NCBI RefSeq assembly: GCF_001697225.1
Contig: NZ_CP014671.1
Coordinates: forward strand, 1,426,001-1,490,000
DNA from: Immundisolibacter cernigliae
Lineage (GTDB): Bacteria > Pseudomonadota > Gammaproteobacteria > Immundisolibacterales > Immundisolibacteraceae
Length of the DNA: 64,000 bases
Direction of reading: 5' to 3'
The first letter of the stretch is position 1; each line of letters opens with the position of its first letter. Below the pieces are notes generated by a model. The model saw only the letters and a list, made by a program, of their open reading frames with translations, did not search any database and had not been told where the DNA came from. The position numbers and the translations under genes are program-made. This document shows positions 3,026-46,518 of this stretch, piece by piece.

Positions 3026-4731
3026 CTACAGGTAGGCTTCCGACGCGTAGCGCCGCATCATGCGGTGGCTGGTGAAGATCGAGCCGTTGTGCGAGATCGC
3101 ACTCTTCATGATGCGCAGCCAGGCGTCGCCGCGTTCGTGGTAGAGCGGCAGCACGGCGCCTTCAAGCTTGCTGTACAGCGATTCCGCATCGCCGTCGGAC
3201 GTGCTGTCGGGACCGTCGCCGATGGCCCAGCCGGTCACGCCTTCGACGCAGCCCTCGATCCACCAGCCGTCGAGCACCGACAGACTCGGCACGCCGTTGA
3301 GCGCCGCCTTCATGCCGCTGGTGCCGGAGGCTTCCAGCGGGCGCTGCGGCGTGTTGAGCCAGACGTCGACGCCGGGAATCAAGGTCTGCGCGAGCGCCAT
3401 GTTGTAGTCCGGCAAGAAGATGCCGCGGATGTCCGGTGCGAGCGCGCGCAGCGCCGCGTGCAAGTGCGCGATACGCTGCTTGCCCGGCTCGTCGCGCGGA
3501 TGCGCCTTGCCGGCGAGCACGATCTGGAACGGATACCGGCGGGCGATGGCACGCAGCCACTCCAGGTCGGTGAACAGCAGCTCGGGGCGCTTGTACGCGG
3601 TCATGCGGCGCGCAAAGCCGATCGTCGGTAGCTCGGGATCGAGAACGACGCCGGTCTGCTCGCGAACCTTGTCGACAAGATCGCGCTTGGCCACAGCGCG
3701 TGCCTGCCGCAGGTCTGCACCGCTCAGGCAGCAGTCCGCGCGCACCAGCATCTCCGGCTCGTTGCACCAGCCGGGCAGATGACGGTCGTAGAGTGCGGCC
3801 AGCGCCGGATGCGTCCAGGTGTGCGGATGCACGCCGTTGGTGACGGCACGCACCGTGTAGCCCGGATACAGGCGGCGCGAGATTTCCGCATGACGCTTGG
3901 CCACACCGTTGACGTAACCGGAAAGATTCAGCGCCAGCCGTGTCATGTCGAGCTGCGCATCGCCCGCCAGCCGGCGCAGCGTGCCGTGCTCGACGAAGTC
4001 GCCAAGCACCCGTTCGACCAGGCCGTAGTCGAATTGATCGTGACCGGCGCCGACCGGCGTGTGCGTCGTGAAGATGCAGCGCTCGCGCACGTCGGGCAGG
4101 TCGTACGGCGGTTCGCCGGGGCGCTGGTCGTCGGCCGGCACGGTCGCCTGGCGCAGCAACTCCAGCGCGAGCAGCGCCGCATGGCCCTCGTTCATGTGGT
4201 ACTTGCGGATACGGAAACCCAGCGCGCCGAGCATGCGCAGGCCGCCGATGCCGAGCACGATTTCCTGCTTGAGGCGGTAGGTGACGTCACCGCCGTAAAG
4301 CTGGTGCGTCAGCTCGCGGTCGGCAGCGTCGTTTTCCGGCAGATCGGTGTCGAGGAAAATCACCGGCGCGTGCCCGCCGACGTGACCTGCGACCGTGTAG
4401 AGCCAGGCGCCGACCCAGACGTCGCGGCCTTCGATCGGCACCACGACCTTTGCGCCCAGGCGCTGGAGCGTCGTGGCGGGATCCCAGGGATCGGGGGCTT
4501 CCGACTGCCAGCCCTCGGCGTCGAGCGCCTGCCGGAAGTAGCCGTTGCGGCTGACCAGACTCACGGCGACGACCGGCAGCTCCAGGTCCGCGGCCGCGCG
4601 GATGGTGTCGCCGGCGAGGATGCCGAGGCCGCCGCTGTAGGTGGGGATGTCGGCGCGCGCGGCGATCTCCATCGTGAAGTAGGCGATGCGCTCGGTTTGC
4701 GCGAAATGGGTCTGCACGGGAAGGGGAAGGC

Positions 4732-4735
<4 letters not shown>
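3026..4735 (-). CDS. glgP: Alpha-glucan family phosphorylase
   Basis: 569 aa. Releases glucose-1-phosphate from glycogen or maltodextrin with inorganic phosphate. Seen: IAYFTMEIAARADIPTYSGG near the N-terminus, HMNEGHAALLALELLR in the middle, and SGTSGMKAALNG with the PLP lysine near residue 476. The length fits the short alpha-glucan phosphorylase subfamily rather than the 800-aa glycogen phosphorylases. The start overlaps the ppsA stop by ATGA (4732-4735), so it is probably translated from the same message as type II GAPDH and PEP synthase. Confidence 0.93.
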
Positions 4736-8533: not shown

Positions 8534-9768
8534 GTGGTGGCTCTCCGTTGCGAGGTGCGTCGTGGGGCCGCCGCGGAGCGGGCCGTGGCGGCCATGGGGT
8601 AGAGGTAGTCGCGGGTGACCGGCAGGCGGTCGAGCGTCTGCGTGAGCTGCAACTGGAACACCGCGAGATCGCCGTGCCGGAAGCAGGCCGCGCAGGCCTG
8701 CAGGTAGAACTCCCACATGCGGCAGAAGCGCTCGCCCATGTGCCCCGCGATGTCCGCGCGCGCCGCCTGGAAGCGGGCGTTCCAGTGTTCGAGCGTCAGC
8801 GCGTAGTGCAGGCGCCAGTACTCGAGGTCCGTGCCGATCAGGCCGGCCGCCTCGACGGCCGCCAGGACTTCGGAGGCCGCCGGAATGTAGCCGCCGGGAA
8901 AAATGTACTTGCGGATCCACGGATCCGAGCCGCCGCCGGCCGAGTAGCGCCCGATCGTGTGCAGCAGGGCGACGCCGTCGGGCTTGAGCAGCTCCCGCAC
9001 GCGGCGGAAGAACAGCGGGTACTGCGGGCGGCCGACGTGCTCGAACATGCCGACGCTGACGATCGCGTCGAACGCGCCGGTCGTGTCGCGGTAGTCCTGC
9101 AGGCGGAACTCGACGCGATCCTGCAGACCGCGTTCGCGAGCACGCTGCTGCGCGACCTTGAGCTGCTCCTGCGACAGCGTGATGCCGGTGCAGTGCACGC
9201 CGTGGCGCTCGGCCAAGTACATCGCCAGGCTGCCCCAGCCGCAGCCGATGTCGAGCACGCGCGCGCCCGGCTTGAGGTCGAGCTTGGCGGCGATGTGCGC
9301 GCACTTGGCCTGCTGCGCCGCTTCCAGCGAGTCGTCCGGGCTGCGGAAGTAGGCGCAGGAGTAGTGCAGGTCGCGGTCGAGGAAGCGCCGGTAGACCGCG
9401 TAGTCCACGTCGTAGTGATGGTGCACGTTCGCCAGCGCGCGGCGGCGCGTGTTCAGCTCGCCGAGCTGCGCGCGCAGCTTGTTGTACCAGCGGGCCGCTG
9501 CAGGCCCTGCGAGGCCGTCGAGGTTGCTGACGCACACGCGCAGGACCTCGGCCAGATTCCCGTTCAGCGGCTCCCAGTGGCCGTCCATGTAGGCCTCGGC
9601 AAAGGCCAAGCGCGGATTGCGCAGCATGCGCCACAGCACGGACGCGTCGCGCACGCGCACGGCGACGGGACTGCCGCTGCCCAGGCGCCAGCGGCGGCCG
9701 TCCGGCGCGACGAATTCCACGGCGCCGGCGCAGCAGCGCCGTCCGATCAGATCGAGGATTGCTTGCAT
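8530..9768 (-). CDS. cfa: Cyclopropane-fatty-acyl-phospholipid synthase (copy 1)
   Basis: 412 aa. Transfers a methylene from S-adenosylmethionine to the double bond of phospholipid acyl chains at the inner membrane face. SAM motif VLDIGCGWGSLAMYLAE at about 171-187, followed by GITLSQEQ and the family motifs SVGMFEHVG and KYIFPGGYIP. Full length. Starts 119 nt after the broken copB stop and is coupled to DUF2934. A divergent second copy lies at 34151. Both would draw on SAM, which the MAT at 39515 supplies. Membrane stiffening under metal or acid stress is the likely benefit (inference). Confidence 0.93.
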   Translation of the reverse strand: MQAILDLIGRRCCAGAVEFVAPDGRRWRLGSGSPVAVRVRDASVLWRMLRNPRLAFAEAYMDGHWEPLNGNLAEVLRVCVSNLDGLAGPAAARWYNKLRAQLGELNTRRRALANVHHHYDVDYAVYRRFLDRDLHYSCAYFRSPDDSLEAAQQAKCAHIAAKLDLKPGARVLDIGCGWGSLAMYLAERHGVHCTGITLSQEQLKVAQQRARERGLQDRVEFRLQDYRDTTGAFDAIVSVGMFEHVGRPQYPLFFRRVRELLKPDGVALLHTIGRYSAGGGSDPWIRKYIFPGGYIPAASEVLAAVEAAGLIGTDLEYWRLHYALTLEHWNARFQAARADIAGHMGERFCRMWEFYLQACAACFRHGDLAVFQLQLTQTLDRLPVTRDYLYPMAATARSAAAPRRTSQRRATT

Positions 9769-20943: not shown

Positions 20944-21034
20944 TTCCTTGTGTTGCGGTGCAGCCTAAACCTGCGCGCAGCGCACAGGTCAAGCGTTCGG
21001 GTCCCGGCGCTCGAACCCATGTTCCGGCCCTACC
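20944..21034. repeat. Copy A of a 91-bp promoter-bearing repeat
   Basis: Matches 29536-29626 with no gaps and about 10 differences (about 89%). It carries the MerR-type promoter of the copper operon, while the other copy serves merR itself. So one promoter region was copied to control a distant operon, or both derive from one ancestral divergent region. Confidence 0.85.
20962..20992 (-). promoter_or_regulatory. CueR-type promoter and operator of the copper operon
   Basis: On the minus strand: -35 TTGACC (20987-20992), a 19-bp spacer, -10 TAGGCT (20962-20967). The over-long 19-bp spacer is the hallmark of MerR-family activated promoters. A 21-bp dyad (20969-20989) lies inside it: half-sites ACCTGTGCGC and GCGCGCAGGT differ from perfect symmetry at one position. 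ACCT...AGGT ends are typical of CueR/HmrR copper sensors. Predicted activator is the MerR protein at 29014. Confidence 0.85.
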
Positions 21035-28957: not shown

Positions 28958-28971
28958 TTGACCCGCGTCAA
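28958..28971. promoter_or_regulatory. FNR/ANR-type box ahead of the nifJ operon
   Basis: TTGACCCGCGTCAA, a perfect 5-4-5 palindrome close to the FNR consensus TTGAT-N4-ATCAA (C/G at the fifth positions). It lies about 190 nt upstream of the first gene start. 28773-29013 otherwise holds no gene. Suggests low-oxygen activation. Confidence 0.7.
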
Positions 28972-29013: not shown

Positions 29014-29529
29014 TCATCGCGGCTGGGAGCGCGCCTTGGGGTGCCGTCGCGCACGGCCAGGCTGCATGTTCGCGGAGTGGTCGCTCGGCCAACTGCCGGC
29101 GACCGCAGTGATCAGGTGGCAGATATCGTTGCCGGTTGGCACTGCGTCGGGCAGGTCGTTCCACAGCGCGACGGCGTGTTGCATGCGCTCCAGCATGACC
29201 TGCAGATCGTCGAGCTCCCGGCGGGTCTCGTCGAGGCGCGACTGGATCGTCGAGCGCACGATGGGGCACGGGCTTTCTCTTTTGTGCCCGAGACGGACGA
29301 TTTCGCCGATCTCGGCGAGCGTGAAGCCGAGGCGCTGGGCGATGCGGATGAAGCGCAGGCGCTCGGCATCGTCCTCGTCGAACAACTGGTAGCCGGCGCT
29401 GGTGCGGCGCGAAGCACGCAGCAGGCCCCGTCGCAGGTACAGCCGGACGACGTGTACCGACAGACCGGCGCGTTCGGCGAGCGAGGAGACGGTCAACAGG
29501 GTCTTCGGTGTGCGGCGCTCGCTGGACAC
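29014..29529 (-). CDS. MerR-family transcriptional regulator (probable copper sensor)
   Basis: 171 aa. N-terminal winged helix (TVSSLAERAGLSVHVVRLYL, about 13-32), a coiled-coil dimerisation helix (RLDETRRELDDLQVMLERMQ), and two Cys, one in ESPCPIV (about 88) and one in NDICHLI (about 137), not the CueR-type C-x7-C loop. GTG start 29529 with AAGGA upstream. The CueR-like operators at 20969, 29561 and 30624 make copper likely, but the Cys arrangement differs from CueR, so metal identity is uncertain. Autoregulated by position: an operator lies 32 nt upstream. Confidence 0.85.
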   Translation of the reverse strand: MSSERRTPKTLLTVSSLAERAGLSVHVVRLYLRRGLLRASRRTSAGYQLFDEDDAERLRFIRIAQRLGFTLAEIGEIVRLGHKRESPCPIVRSTIQSRLDETRRELDDLQVMLERMQHAVALWNDLPDAVPTGNDICHLITAVAGSWPSDHSANMQPGRARRHPKARSQPR

Positions 29530-29661: not shown

Positions 29662-29727
29662 TTGATTCGTGTCAGCCATGTGGTCTTTGCGCGCGGGCGA
29701 CGGGCGTAGCCGATTGACCGAGGTCAG
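29662..29727. promoter_or_regulatory. Two FNR-like boxes upstream of the truncated ftsH
   Basis: TTGATTCGTGTCAG (29662-29675) and TTGACCGAGGTCAG (29714-29727), each one base from a full 5-4-5 palindrome (final A is G). The same paired arrangement precedes the second ftsH remnant at 46183 and 46249, where both boxes are complete. Confidence 0.5.
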
Positions 29728-29787
29728 TGACAGGACCGTCGCCTTGGGGCACCTTTGGTCGAACTCGTCCGGCAAAGGCCGCAATCG

Positions 29788-30587
29788 ATGCACCCGAAAC
29801 ACCGCATCAATCTGCTTTACCTGGTGGCAGCGGTCTTCGGCATTCTGCTGATGCAGAGCATGCTCGCCGGCGTCGGCCACGTGCGTAGCGTGCCGTACAG
29901 CGAATTCGAGCAGATGCTCAAGGACGGCGAGATCGAGGAAGTGGCGATCACCAATGGCAGCCTGCGCGGCACGCTGGCGGGCTCGACCGCGGACCAGCCG
30001 CAGCACGTCGTCGCCGCGAATGTCGACCCGGCCCAGGCCGAGCGCCTCGAACGCTATGGCGTGCGCTTCTTCGCCGTGAAGGAAAACACCTGGCTGCGCG
30101 ACATCCTGTCCTGGGTTGTGCCGATGCTGCTGTTCTTCGGCCTGTGGATGTTCGTGTTCCGGCGCCTGGCCGAGAAGCAGGGCATGGGCGGCGGCATGAT
30201 GGCGATCGGCAAGAGCAAGGCCAAGGTCTACGTCGAGAATGACACCAAGGTGAGCTTCGCCGACGTCGCCGGTGTCGACGAAGCCAAGGCCGAGCTGCAG
30301 GAGATCGTGACCTTCCTGAAGAATCCGGCGCCGTACGGACGCCTGGGTGCGCGCCTGCCCAAGGGCATCCTGCTCGTCGGTCCGCCCGGCACCGGCAAGA
30401 CGCTGCTGGCGCGCGCAGTGGCCGGCTAAGCCGGCGTACCGTTCTTCTTGATCAGCGGCGCCGAGTTCGTCGAGATGTTCGTCGGCATCAGCCCCATCAC
30501 TACGATCCGCTCCATCAGCAATTTGGGTCCTGCGAAGGTCGTTCTGGCATTCTTGTGGCTGCGTCGCGGCGCCCTGCTTCGCCGGTA
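29788..30587 (+). pseudogene. ftsH: FtsH protease, N-terminal remnant with nonsense mutation
   Basis: From ATG 29788: N-terminal membrane helix ([20 protein letters not shown]), periplasmic domain, second helix ([19 protein letters not shown]), start of the AAA domain ([19 protein letters not shown]) and Walker [21 protein letters not shown] (30427-30429) then replaces the usual GAA Glu codon; the frame continues AGVPFFLISGAEFVEMFVG before diverging from FtsH into unrelated sequence to a stop at 30585-30587. The rest of the ATPase and the zinc protease domain are absent, so both a point mutation and a deletion occurred. The 213-aa product would keep only the membrane part and Walker A. Confidence 0.88.
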
Positions 30588-30588
30588 G

Positions 30589-30602
30589 TTGATCCCGATC
30601 AA
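30589..30602. promoter_or_regulatory. Perfect FNR/ANR box upstream of the plus-strand copper module
   Basis: TTGATCCCGATCAA matches the FNR consensus in all ten specified positions. Its centre is about 62 nt before the start expected from the CueR-type promoter at 30621-30651, the class I activator spacing. 30588-30890 otherwise has no gene. Confidence 0.75.
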
Positions 30603-30620
30603 ATGCGATCGGTTCCTGCC

Positions 30621-30651
30621 TAGACCTGTGCCCGGGACACAGGTTCTAAAT
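30621..30651 (+). promoter_or_regulatory. Third CueR-type promoter/operator
   Basis: Plus strand: -35 TAGACC (30621-30626), 19-bp spacer, -10 CTAAAT (30646-30651). The 21-bp dyad at 30624-30644 has half-sites ACCTGTGCCC and GGACACAGGT with a single asymmetric pair. The weak -35 is expected where a MerR regulator remodels the promoter. Drives the EF-hand gene and probably the second copper ATPase. Confidence 0.8.
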
Positions 30652-30860
30652 TGCGCAACACGACCTTGAAGACCGTCCGTCCGCCAATGCTTTTGCGCAG
30701 TGCCGGGCTTGCGCCGGACAGTTTCGGGCTGCCTGCGGTTTTCTTGAAAAGAAGGTCTGGGTAAGGTGACGCATCCGGTCGGGTCGGCGCAAGCCGCACC
30801 CGTGGTCACGTGGCTGGGCAAGGCGGGTGCCGGTACCGCTTTGGTACGTTGGTAAATCGA

Positions 30861-30876
30861 CGGGGCCTCGGCCCCG
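30861..30876 (+). other. GC hairpin just ahead of the EF-hand ribosome site
   Basis: CGGGGCC-TC-GGCCCCG, a 7-bp stem with a 2-nt loop, ending two nt before the AGGAG of the 30891 gene. Could affect translation; no known riboswitch is recognised. Confidence 0.35.
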
Positions 30877-30890
30877 CAGGAGTGATTGCA

Positions 30891-31238
30891 ATGAGCGCAC
30901 GACGTTTGGTATGGACCCTGACGGCCGCCCTGGCATTCTCGGGCAGCGCCTTGGCGCAGGGCATGATGGGGATGGGCATGCACGGGATGATGATGGGCGA
31001 GGGCGACCAGAAGGTGAGCAAGGAGGAGTTCCTCAAGCACGCCGAGGCGCGCTTCGCCCGCATGGACGCCAACAAGGACGGCGTGATCGACGCCACCGAC
31101 CGCGCCGCCATGCGCAAGCGCATGCAGGACTGCATGGGCATGATGGACGGCGGCATGGGCGGGATGGATGGCGGTATGAAGGGCGGGGCCGCCGGCGGGG
31201 CCGGCCAGGACCACGAGGCGCATCACCCCAAACCGTGA
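30891..31238 (+). CDS. Periplasmic EF-hand, Met/Gly-rich protein
   Basis: 115 aa. Signal peptide 1-23 (cleaved after ALA), a Met-rich start to the mature protein (MMGMGMHGMMMGEGD), an EF-hand loop DANKDGVIDATD (about 59-70), then another Met/Gly-rich tail (MQDCMGMMDGGMGGMDGG) and HEAHH. AGGAG 9 nt before the ATG. The Met clusters resemble Cu(I)-binding sites of periplasmic copper chaperones. Likely copper buffering, with a calcium-type loop of unknown purpose. Confidence 0.85.
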   Translation: MSARRLVWTLTAALAFSGSALAQGMMGMGMHGMMMGEGDQKVSKEEFLKHAEARFARMDANKDGVIDATDRAAMRKRMQDCMGMMDGGMGGMDGGMKGGAAGGAGQDHEAHHPKP

Positions 31239-31243
31239 CCGGG

Positions 31244-31270
31244 CGGGGCCGCGCCGTCTGGTGCGGCCCT
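31244..31270 (+). terminator. Rho-independent-type terminator after the EF-hand gene
   Basis: Stem GGGCCGCGCC / GGTGCGGCCC with loop GTCT (one G-U pair), then TTT and a G. Short T run, so possibly partial, allowing some read-through to the ATPase. Confidence 0.55.
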
Positions 31271-31351
31271 TTGCCGGCGCCGGCGACGAGGCGGGGGCTG
31301 CCACGAACAGGCTCCGCGTCTGGGCATTCGTTGGTGCCGCGGCGGTGGTCC

Positions 31352-31585
31352 ATGGGGAGTGCGCTGGCGGTCTGGCTATCGCCGGCGGGTAAGGTGGTGT
31401 TCCTGAACGCCTGCGTGCACGGCCTGAATCTCGCGCCGTTGCTGCCCGAAAGTGGCAAACCGCTCACTTGGACCGGCTTCTTCTACGGTCTGGGCGGCAC
31501 GACGGCGACGGCTTCTGTTGGCGCAGCACTGCTCGCGTTTTTCTACAACCGGCTGGCGGCCTGCGGCCGGGCGGGCGGGACATAA
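31352..31585 (+). CDS. Small membrane protein, possibly 5'-truncated by frameshift
   Basis: 77 aa with two hydrophobic segments and the motif FLNACVHGLNLAPLLPESGK then WTGFFYGLGGTTATASVGA, a conserved small membrane family of copper clusters. The expected N-terminal helix (RLRVWAFVGAAAVVHG) is present just upstream in another frame (about 31306-31353), so a frameshift may have shortened it. 24 nt before the ATPase start. Confidence 0.5.
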   Translation: MGSALAVWLSPAGKVVFLNACVHGLNLAPLLPESGKPLTWTGFFYGLGGTTATASVGAALLAFFYNRLAACGRAGGT

Positions 31586-31609
31586 CGACCTCACGACACG
31601 GAGACCGAC

Positions 31610-33966
31610 ATGGCGAAAGACCCGGTATGCGGCATGCAGGTGGCGGAGGACCGGGCGGCCGGCCGTGCCGAGCACGACGGCCGCACCTATTACTTCTGCT
31701 CGACCGGGTGTCTGGAAAAATTCCGCGCTGACCCGGTGGCCTACGCGACCGCAGACGCTGCACGCGTCGCGCCGGCCGATGCCCACCACGGCCAGGCCCA
31801 CGCGGGCCACGCCCACCCGGGTCGCCCTGCCGCTGCGCCGGCGTCACCGGGGGCGATCTGGACCTGCCCCATGCACCCCGAGGTGCGCCAGGATCACCCC
31901 GGCGACTGCCCCATCTGCGGCATGGCGCTGGAGCCGGTAACGGTCGGCGCCGAGCCGGAGGACAACCCCGAACTGCGCGACATGGCCCGGCGCTTCTGGG
32001 TCGCCGCGGTGCTCACCGTCCCACGGTGCTGCTGGCCATGGGCGGGCTCATCCCCGGGGTGGCGCTGGAAACCCTGATTCCGCACTCGGTGGGCATGTGG
32101 GCGGAGTTGGGGCTGGCCACTCCGGTGGTGCTGTGGAGCGGCTGGCCGTTCTTCGTGCGCGCGTACCGCTCGGTGCGCACCTGGAAGCTCAACATGTTCA
32201 CGCTGATCGGCCTGGGCGTCGGCGTGGCCTATGCCTACAGCCTCGTCGCCACCCTGGCGCCGGGCATCTTTCCGGACTCGTTCCGCGATCAGAGTGGACG
32301 GGTCGCGGTGTACTTCGAGGCGGCGGCGGTCATCGTCGCCCTGGTGCTGCTCGGCCAGGTCATGGAGCTGCGCGCGCGCAGCTCGACCAACGCCGCCATC
32401 CGCTCGCTGCTGAGTCTGGCGCCCAAGACCGCGCGGCGCATCGCGCCCGACGGCAGCGAATCCGACGTGCCGCTCGAAGCCGTGCAGGTCGGCGACCGCC
32501 TGCGGGTGCGGCCGGGCGAGAAGGTGCCGGTGGACGGCGTGGTGCTGGAAGGTCACAGCGCCGTCGACGAATCCATGATCTCCGGCGAGCCGATCCCGGT
32601 CGAGAAGGCGGCGGGTGACGGCGTGATCGGAGCCACCGTCAACGGTACCGGATCGCTGGTGATCGAGGCCCGCCGGGTGGGCAGCGACACCCTGCTCGCG
32701 CAGATCGTGCAGATGGTGGCCGAGGCCAGCCGCTCGCGCGCCCCGATCCAGAACCTGGTGGACGTGGTGGCCGCCTACTTCGTCCAGGTCGTGGTCGGGA
32801 TTGCCATCCTCACCTTCATCGTCTGGAGCCTCTGGGGCCCACCGCCGGCCATGGCCTACGCGCTCATCAACGCGGTGGCCGTGCTGATCATCGCCTGCCC
32901 CTGCGCGCTGGGGCTGGCGACACCCATGTCGATCATGGTGGCGAGCGGCAAGGGCGCCTCCATGGGCGTCCTGTTCAAGAACGCCGAGGCCATCCAGACC
33001 CTGCGTGAGGTCGACACCCTGGTGATCGACAAGACCGGCACCCTCACCGAGGGTCGGCCGCAGCTGCAGGACGTGGTGGTCGCCGAAGGCGTCGACGAAA
33101 GCGGGGTCCTGCGTCTGGCGGCGACCCTGGAGCGCGGCAGCGAGCACCCGCTGGCCGCCGCCATCGTTGCCGGTGCGCAGGCGCGCGGTGTGGAACCGGG
33201 CAGCTACGAGGATTTCGAGTCCGTCACCGGCCAAGGCGTGCGCGGGCGCATCGGCGGCCGGGACGTGGCGCTCGGCAATCGGGCGCTGATGGACGCGCTC
33301 GGCGTGGACATCAGCGCGCTCGCGCAGCGCGCCGAGGCGCTGCGCACCGAGGGCAAGACCGCCATGTTCGTGGCGGTGGACGGTCGGCCCGCCGGGCTGG
33401 TGGCGGTGGCCGACCCGGTCAAGGAGACCACCCCTGATGCCATCCGCGCCCTGCACGCCGAAGGCATCCGCATCGTCATGCTCACCGGCGACAGCGCCAC
33501 CACCGCCCGCGCGGTGGCGCAGCGCCTGGGCATCGACGAGGTGCTGGCCGAGGTGCAGCCGGGGGAGAAGGCGCAGAAGATCAAGGAACTGCAAGCCCAG
33601 GGCCGCTTCGTGGCCATGGCCGGCGACGGCATCAACGACGCCCCGGCGCTGGCCCAGGCGCAGGTCGGCATCGCCATGGGCACCGGCACCGACGTGGCCA
33701 TGGAGAGCGCCGGCGTGACGCTGGTCAAGGGCGACCTGCGGGGCATCGTCCGCGCACGCCACGTGTCGCGCGCCACCATGCGCAACATTCGCCAGAACCT
33801 TTTCTTTGCTTTCGTCTACAACGCCCTCGGCGTGCCGATCGCCGCCGGTGTTCTGTACCCGGTGTTCGGTCTCCTGCTGTCGCCGATCATCGCAGCGGCG
33901 GCTATGTCTCTCAGTTCGGTCTCGGTGGTCGGCAATGCGCTGCGGCTGAACCGGGCGCACGTATGA
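31610..33966 (+). pseudogene. Copper P1B ATPase (CPC type) with YHS domain, single-base frameshift
   Basis: Frame 1 (31610-32077) encodes a YHS domain (DPVCGMQV, YYFCSTGCLEKF) and the heavy-metal-binding motif [23 protein letters not shown]. The reading frame then changes near 32019-32024 (a missing C would restore [16 protein letters not shown]). Frame 2 continues from 32026 to 33966 with [31 protein letters not shown] and [10 protein letters not shown]. Repaired, the protein is 785 aa and complete. This is a one-base deletion or an assembly error; if real, only the second frame (from ATG 32026, lacking the metal-binding head) could be made. Confidence 0.88.
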
Positions 33967-34154
33967 GTCCGGCGAGTAGATGCAGCCATGGCGCTGACGG
34001 ACCACCCGTCCAGCGTGCTCCGGTGATCGCAGCGTCGAAGCTTCCACTACCTCTCATTGCCGCGTTGGTGGCTAGCTCGCGCCCGTCGGTGATCGTCAAC
34101 CCGGTGCTGCTGCGGCGTTTGCGAATGCCGGCGAGCAGCCCGATGTCCGGGTGA
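33963..34154 (+). CDS. Possible 63-aa coupled ORF of unknown function
   Basis: Starts ATGA over the ATPase stop and ends GTGA over the start of the next cfa, which fits translational coupling. The product ([20 protein letters not shown] in the middle) has a weak hydrophobic stretch and no recognisable motif. May simply be a leader between two genes. Confidence 0.3.
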
Positions 34155-35440
34155 CGGCCGTGGCGGCGGCACCGCAAGGGGAGGCACCTGCCGCGCGCCG
34201 CGCCGATCGAGCCGCGGCGCATATCGTGCAGTGCCTGCTGCACGGGCATCCGGGCGGTCTTGCGGTGCGCCTGTGGAACGGCCGGGTGCTGGGGGCGGCG
34301 GATGCCGCCTGCTCGCTGGTGTTGCACGACGCGGCGGTGCTGCGCGATCTGGTTCTGCGGCGCGACCCGCTGCGTCTCGCGGAGGCCTTCTTTCGCGGGC
34401 AGGTGGATATCGAGGGCGATCTGTACGCCGCCCTCGGTCTGCGCTCGCAGCTCGGGGGTCTGCGCCTGAGGTGGCGCGAACGGTTCGGGCTCGCGTGGCA
34501 GGCACTGGCCCTGCGCGGCCCGGCCCGCGCCGGCGCAGAACTGCGCGTGGCGCGCGGCCGGCGGCGCGACGCCCGTCGCGCCATCGGCTTTCACTACGAC
34601 GTCTCGAACGACTTCTACCGGCTGTGGCTGGACCGGGAGATGGTCTACTCCTGCGCCTATTTCGAGGACGCGGCGCACGACCTCGACCGGGCGCAGCAGG
34701 CCAAGCTCGAACACCTGTGCCGCAAGCTGCGCCTGGCACCGGGACAGCGCCTGCTCGACATCGGTTGCGGTTGGGGCGCCCTGATCGTTCACGCCGCCCG
34801 GCACCACGGCGTGAGCGCCCACGGCATCACCTTGAGCCGCAACCAGTACGAGCACGTGCAGGCGCGGATCGCGCAGGGGGGGCTCGCCGGCCGCGTCACG
34901 GTGGCGCTCAAGGACTACGCCGAACTCGACGGCACCGCGGTTTACGACCGCATCGTCAGCGTCGGCATGTTCGAGCACGTGGGCCTAGAGCGCCTGCCGC
35001 GCTACTTCGACGCCGCGCGCCGGCTGCTTGCGCCCGGCGGGGTGTTCCTGAACCACGGCATCACCCAGAACGGCGAAGGCTGGGGCCGCACCGTCGGCAC
35101 CTCCTTCATCAACCGCTACGTGTTCCCGGGCGGGGAGCTCGACAGCGTGAGCAATGTCCAGCGGGTGATGGAGCGCCGCGGCTTCGAGATCCTGGACGTC
35201 GAGGCGCTGCGCCCGCATTACGCGCTCACGCTGCGCGCGTGGGTGAGCCGCCTGCAGGCCGCCGAGGCCGAGGCGCTGCGCCTCGTATCGCCGGCGGTGT
35301 ACCGGGTGTGGTGCCTGTACATGGCGGCGTGCGCGCGCGCCTTCGAGGCCGGCGACGTCGGCGTGTACCAGATCCTCGCCGCGCCGCGCGGCGACGGGCG
35401 CTGGCCGGTGCCGATGACGCGCCGGGATCTGTATGTCTGA
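34151..35440 (+). CDS. cfa: Cyclopropane-fatty-acyl-phospholipid synthase (copy 2)
   Basis: 429 aa, GTG start at 34151. SAM-binding LLDIGCGWGALIVHAAR with GITLSRNQYEHVQ, then FHYDVSNDFYRLWLDREMVY, SVGMFEHVG and NRYVFPGGELDSV. Differs from copy 1 in its longer N-terminal region, so it is a paralogue rather than a recent duplicate. Overlaps the CarR-like gene by 8 nt. Same reaction as copy 1. Confidence 0.92.
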   Translation: MTAVAAAPQGEAPAARRADRAAAHIVQCLLHGHPGGLAVRLWNGRVLGAADAACSLVLHDAAVLRDLVLRRDPLRLAEAFFRGQVDIEGDLYAALGLRSQLGGLRLRWRERFGLAWQALALRGPARAGAELRVARGRRRDARRAIGFHYDVSNDFYRLWLDREMVYSCAYFEDAAHDLDRAQQAKLEHLCRKLRLAPGQRLLDIGCGWGALIVHAARHHGVSAHGITLSRNQYEHVQARIAQGGLAGRVTVALKDYAELDGTAVYDRIVSVGMFEHVGLERLPRYFDAARRLLAPGGVFLNHGITQNGEGWGRTVGTSFINRYVFPGGELDSVSNVQRVMERRGFEILDVEALRPHYALTLRAWVSRLQAAEAEALRLVSPAVYRVWCLYMAACARAFEAGDVGVYQILAAPRGDGRWPVPMTRRDLYV

Positions 35441-46182: not shown

Positions 46183-46262
46183 TTGATCTGGGTCAAGCGG
46201 TCGCAATCTGCAGTCAAGCCCCACGCCTGCGTTGGATGCACTGCGCGATTGACCGATATCAA
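46183..46262. promoter_or_regulatory. Two FNR/ANR boxes upstream of the second ftsH remnant
   Basis: TTGATCTGGGTCAA (46183-46196) and TTGACCGATATCAA (46249-46262), both with intact 5-4-5 arms. No intact gene follows: only the degenerate ftsH start. Between 45797 and 46684 no other gene is seen. Confidence 0.6.
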
Positions 46263-46321
46263 TGCCCGGCCGCCTCGCTCGCGTCATCGCTGAGGCTTGT
46301 CAGGTCAACGCAGGCGCATCC

Positions 46322-46518
46322 ATGGACCCCCAGGACTCGCATCAATCTGATCTACCTGATCTACATCGTGGCCGCCGTGTTCGGGGTGTTGCGGATGCAG
46401 AGCATGTTCGCCGGCGGGCCACGTCCGCACAGTGCCGCACAGCGAGTTCGAACAGATGCTCAAGAACGGCGAGATCGAGGAGGTCGCGATCGTCGGCCAT
46501 GGGAGCGACTCGCTGTGA
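46322..46518 (+). pseudogene. ftsH: Second FtsH remnant, N-terminus only
   Basis: In shifting frames: RINLIYLIYIVAAVFGVL, RMQSMFAG, then [19 protein letters not shown], matching the start of the 29788 copy. At least two frameshifts and a stop at 46516-46518. About 60 residues survive. Confidence 0.75.

Follow-up and report, generated by a model that had tools for sequence, protein, structure and literature searches.

A candidate composite promoter pairing an FNR box with a MerR-type promoter upstream of copA in Immundisolibacter cernigliae

The CueR-copA systems of E. coli, Rhizobium and Burkholderiales share their metal-sensor logic, over-long promoter spacer and copA target with the locus described here, and some CueR promoters of Rhizobium and Burkholderiales likewise have an FNR-type box whose distance to the downstream -35 element is 18-21 nt. 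However, CueR is characterized by ACCTTCC-type operator arms, Ser77 and C112/C120, whereas the present system has ACCTGTG arms, a Cys at the Ser77 position and no C112. The mobile merR-copA copper-resistance clusters of Alteromonas macleodii and other bacteria (PMC8478169) resemble the locus in their two-Cys MerR protein and Cu P-type ATPase, in an ACCTGTG/ACCTATG dyad with a 19-20 bp spacer, and in the DUF2933 and isoprenylcysteine methyltransferase genes of the regulon. In those clusters merR and copA constitute one operon and an FNR box is not found nearby, whereas the copA gene studied here has a promoter of its own with an FNR box, and is preceded by an EF-hand gene. FNR class I promoters share the perfect TTGATN4ATCAA site centred near -61.5, but the core promoter in our case is MerR-type with a 19-bp spacer and not an ordinary sigma-70 promoter.

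Cu(I) is the more toxic form of copper and prevails without oxygen, and oxygen sensing is connected to copper export, as far as is known, in indirect ways. The closest cases described are Salmonella cueP, controlled by CueR and CpxR (PMC13201067), and a merR-family gene of Vibrio that FNR activates (PMC9662190). As proposed for the present copA, a MerR-family activator is joined at the copper gene cueP by another stress regulator, but the second input there is envelope stress, whereas the one predicted here is oxygen. The open-licence literature on FNR with CueR or copA, FixK with copA, and FNR with MerR copper genes described no such promoter; the pairing of FNR and MerR sites ahead of a copper-export gene combines known parts in a new way.

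The locus lies in a window of 64,000 nucleotides, the whole stretch of I. cernigliae DNA that was analysed. A DNA search identified a paralogue in the same genome at 2,779,401 (86% identity) and an orthologous locus in a sister species, G001 (88% identity). The window contains the following features:

30589 to 30602, forward strand: palindromic FNR/ANR box TTGATCCCGATCAA, centred at 30595.5, about -61.5 from the predicted start
30621 to 30626, forward strand: -35 element TAGACC, assigned by sequence pattern (TGGACC in the paralogue and G001)
30624 to 30644, forward strand: MerR-family operator ACCTGTG-CCCGGGA-CACAGGT, a perfect 7-7-7 dyad
30646 to 30651, forward strand: -10 element CTAAAT, separated from the -35 element by a 19-bp spacer
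30658 to 30890, forward strand: untranslated leader, about 233 nt long and almost the same in all three copies over its 3' half
30891 to 31238, forward strand: gene of a small Met-rich, secreted-looking EF-hand protein, the first gene of the conserved unit (EF-hand match below the Pfam cut-off)
31610 to 33966, forward strand: copA, encoding a P1B ATPase of the Cu type whose N-terminus carries YHS and HMBD domains
29014 to 29529, reverse strand: MerR-family regulator, the likely cognate activator, with Cys in SPCP and CHLI and without a CueR-type C112
29561 to 29581, reverse strand: the same dyad in the promoter of the merR gene, ACCTTTGCCCTGCGCACAGGT, with a TTGACC -35 element
20969 to 20989, reverse strand: third dyad, ACCTGTGCGCTGCGCGCAGGT, with a TTGACC -35 element, before a DUF2933 - ICMT-type methyltransferase - MBL operon

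Judged from its sequence, the region from 30589 to 30651 is probably a composite promoter that places a small copper-export unit under joint control of FNR and a MerR-family regulator. The original prediction of a perfect FNR box at 30589-30602 was confirmed, as TTGATCCCGATCAA matches TTGATN4ATCAA without exception and is the sole zero-mismatch FNR match in the window. A first-order Markov model of the window predicts 0.007 perfect boxes per window and 0.36 per 3.24-Mb genome; for a distance of up to 150 bp from a given dyad, the figure drops to 1.7e-5. The 3.24-Mb genome contains three perfect boxes, two of which lie at the two copies of the dyad promoter, and a genome scan with the reversed pattern as control returned 0 matches. 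The third perfect box is found at G000:C1:1258024-1258037. The window box ends 18 nt upstream of the -35 element of the MerR-type promoter. With a start predicted from sequence at about 30657, its centre falls at about -61.5, which agrees with the class I distance of about 62 nt that had been proposed. This is the textbook class I activating position for FNR, upstream of all core promoter contacts. A class II arrangement at -41.5 was rejected by sequence reading, since no acceptable -10 element occurs at the required place.

Two Fnr-family proteins encoded in the genome exceed the NCBIfam Fnr cut-off, and both carry CX2CX5C plus a later Cys and an ExxSR-type recognition helix (ETVSR). The other Crp/Fnr-family proteins were discarded as binders of the box because they contain neither the Cys motif nor an ExxSR helix. 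Further FNR-like sites occur in the window. One of them, TTGACCCGCGTCAA at 28958-28971, lies upstream of an operon encoding GltD-like and pyruvate:ferredoxin oxidoreductase proteins and suggests a wider low-oxygen regulon in the island. Two decayed ftsH fragments (29755-30429 and about 46320-46500) are each preceded by FNR-like sites, at 29662 and at 46183 and 46249, respectively.

The same prediction had assigned a CueR-type promoter to 30621-30651. A MerR-family promoter at this position is real, with the dyad located between the -35 and -10 elements across a 19-bp spacer as in MerR-activated metal-efflux promoters, but its assignment to CueR is contradicted by the operator arms and by the regulator. 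This perfect 7-7-7 dyad is expected 0.005 times per genome. Its arms are ACCTGTG/CACAGGT, not the ACCTTCC type of the CueR regulon. By the criteria used here, dyads of this kind occur in the window only at the copA, merR and DUF2933-ICMT-MBL promoters, and a scan of 30540-34300 for sigma-70 promoters returned no such promoter. The MerR protein encoded at 29014-29529 reached 66.7 bits where the CueR cut-off is 147.4, and lay far below the curated cut-offs for CueR, MerR, ZntR and CadR. It belongs to a distinct subfamily in which alignment revealed two Cys residues, in SPCP at CueR's Ser77 position and in CHLI, together with a conserved Trp. The signature of the merR-copA clusters (SPCP, W..PD.P....CHLI, the same dyad and a Cu P1B ATPase target) was recovered from the alignment and the loci. 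None of the seven MerR_1 matches in the genome combined Ser77 with C112/C120, that is, no CueR orthologue was found. CueR as the regulator of this promoter was ruled out by score, residues and operator arms.

Homologues of the window MerR that share its Cys pattern, with 35-46% identity to it, stand next to this dyad and to copA or multicopper oxidase genes in G050, G028 and G016 and, on plasmids, in Alteromonas, Vibrio and Methylophaga. PMC8478169 lists the HOT1A3 locus of Alteromonas and reports that copper induces two plasmid merR-copA clusters of this kind, from strains CUKW and KCC02. Since these relatives sit beside copA and copper induction is reported for the Alteromonas clusters, the copA promoter likely gives a copper-type response through a non-CueR MerR. 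In the sister species G001 the composite promoter is present, yet the best match to the window MerR reaches 36% and is not a close orthologue; another MerR must therefore act there, or none. The nearest MerR proteins of G001 (36-37%) are counterparts of two I. cernigliae (G000) genes behind RND-type efflux genes, which were identified as such in G000 by reading the upstream sequence.

The window, the paralogue and G001 are identical in the FNR box (14/14) and from the dyad through the -10 element, with unchanged spacing. Outside these elements, the copies differ at four of the 18 linker positions, at one base of the -35 element and in the flank shortly downstream; the leader is conserved in its 3' half to the same degree as the sites. 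The three copies are related by descent and do not constitute independent evidence. Immediately before the ribosome site, the leader contains a GGGGCC/GGCCCC hairpin; together with a 29-codon open frame it falls in a segment (30760-30890) that is nearly identical in all three copies. No coding role is ascribed to the frame, as the differences between copies are mostly non-synonymous, and an Rfam search of the leader yielded no element above threshold.

The ATPase exceeds the TIGR01511 cut-off. Its frame in the window is broken by a one-base difference near 32030-32045 into ORFs 31610-32077 and 32026-33966, which may reflect a real frameshift or an assembly error; in both the paralogue and G001, copA runs through as one intact ORF. 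DNA similarity to these two copies stops at copA and different genes come after it there, so the cyclopropane synthase, lycopene-cyclase-like and ABC1 genes of the window do not belong to the conserved part. By this sequence comparison, the predicted target is the EF-hand protein gene plus copA, to the exclusion of the lipid genes. The module of copper and lipid enzymes originally envisaged thus retained its copper component, copA, while the lipid genes are absent after the other two copies. On an Acidovorax plasmid, a cyclopropane synthase gene adjoins a relative of the window MerR.

A strict pattern scan of 85,000 genomes returned 82 matches, mostly chance; most were set aside as such because they fell in AT-rich genomes or inside ORFs. 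In a Rhizobium clade, TTGACCGCCGTCAA precedes copA with a gap of 18 nt to TTGACC, and a CueR gene lies downstream; a sample of 249 genomes from the Rhizobium family contained no match besides the query genome. Two Burkholderiales/Pseudomonadota MAGs carry the pair before copA, and in one of them a perfect TTGATGTTGATCAA is situated, with a gap of 19 nt, between divergent cueR and copA promoters. Pairs of an FNR-type box and a CueR promoter also precede copA or copZ in a betaproteobacterial family (4 of 64 genomes; gaps of 19, 21 and 34 nt). Among 369 genomes of the window's own gammaproteobacterial class, matches were confined to this genus and G154, and strict composites were found in one other genus among the 272 gammaproteobacterial genera sampled. 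The association of FNR boxes with copper MerR-type promoters is recurrent, rare and without fixed spacing. The gaps elsewhere vary (18, 19, 21 and 34 nt), two of these values, 21 and 34 nt, depart from classical class I spacing, and the -61.5 position is therefore not universal. The copA promoter of G154 (L172:6975-7013) shows a looser version of the composite, with TTGATCCGGGTCAA 21 nt before TGGACC. A Variovorax plasmid island that carries the same genes has FNR boxes before merR and one other gene (L174:5893-5906 and 9437-9450), possibly another link of oxygen to the MerR regulon.

Three other readings of the box were considered. It may be functional but independent of the MerR promoter, with FNR as the older input, the MerR promoter added within the genus, and control either additive or exerted mainly by FNR. 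The EF-hand-copA operon of G007, which belongs to the same order, has an FNR-like TTGACGAAGGTCAA exactly 18 nt before a TTGACG -35 element, thus the same box and spacing, at an ordinary promoter with 17-bp-spaced -35/-10 elements and no MerR dyad. In G002, of the same genus, the EF-hand-copA genes are without the dyad, and upstream of copA lies a phosphorylase gene in the same orientation that is itself preceded by an FNR box, TTGACTGTGATCAA. These boxes without a dyad imply that the FNR input at EF-hand-copA may predate the MerR input. In the window, however, no promoter other than the MerR-type one lies at the right distance from the box; with its 19-bp spacer it should respond poorly to FNR alone, and the sigma-70 scan found no substitute for it. 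Independent action is regarded as unlikely.

That the box is a chance or relic match, leaving the metal sensor to act alone, is more improbable still. The homologous merR-copA promoters of Alteromonas, Vibrio, Methylophaga and G050 have the dyad and no FNR box nearby, and the region is in flux, with its decayed ftsH fragments and duplications; but the expectation for a perfect box so near to a dyad is minute, and the paralogue and G001 carry the identical box. We give least credence to a repressing or blocking FNR, which would lower anaerobic basal expression or insulate the unit from upstream transcription. The position of a site does not by itself prove activation, and comparable sites elsewhere, at gaps of 21 and 34 nt, are off the classical class I positions, whereas the window box occupies the activating position, clear of the core promoter contacts.

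Joint copper and oxygen control, as originally proposed, was supported by the placement and rarity of the sites, their identity in three copies, the two FNR proteins and the G007 box, but not in its CueR and lipid components. From the sites, spacing, rarity, three-copy identity, FNR proteins and the association of the MerR subfamily with the dyad and copA, we infer binding, metal identity, and the direction and logic of control as follows. The neighbouring 29014-29529 protein, most likely, would bind the dyad in the over-long 19-bp spacer and, with a thiophilic metal, probably Cu(I), realign the promoter. When oxygen is absent, FNR with its 4Fe-4S cluster would bind the box at about -61.5 and raise output through the C-terminal domain of the RNA polymerase alpha subunit, as in class I activation. 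As FNR alone would not correct the spacer, it is expected to amplify or gate the metal response, and the outcome would be more export when Cu(I) is favoured. More tentatively, and somewhat short of probable, FNR could be a class I co-activator of a MerR-type promoter that requires metal and low oxygen together, an arrangement that arose more than once (in this genus, some Burkholderiales and a Rhizobium clade) and that pre-arms or amplifies copper export as Cu(I) becomes dominant. If FNR does act directly on a MerR-type copA promoter, one DNA element would integrate both signals, which raises the mechanistic question of whether a class I activator can help a promoter whose spacer a MerR protein must untwist.

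Furthermore, a carbohydrate phosphorylase gene is located at 3026-4735 of the window, and its relatives neighbour merR or copA in G001, G002, G050, G043 and Methylophaga. This gene neighbourhood points to a possible conserved link between glucan metabolism and copper genes.
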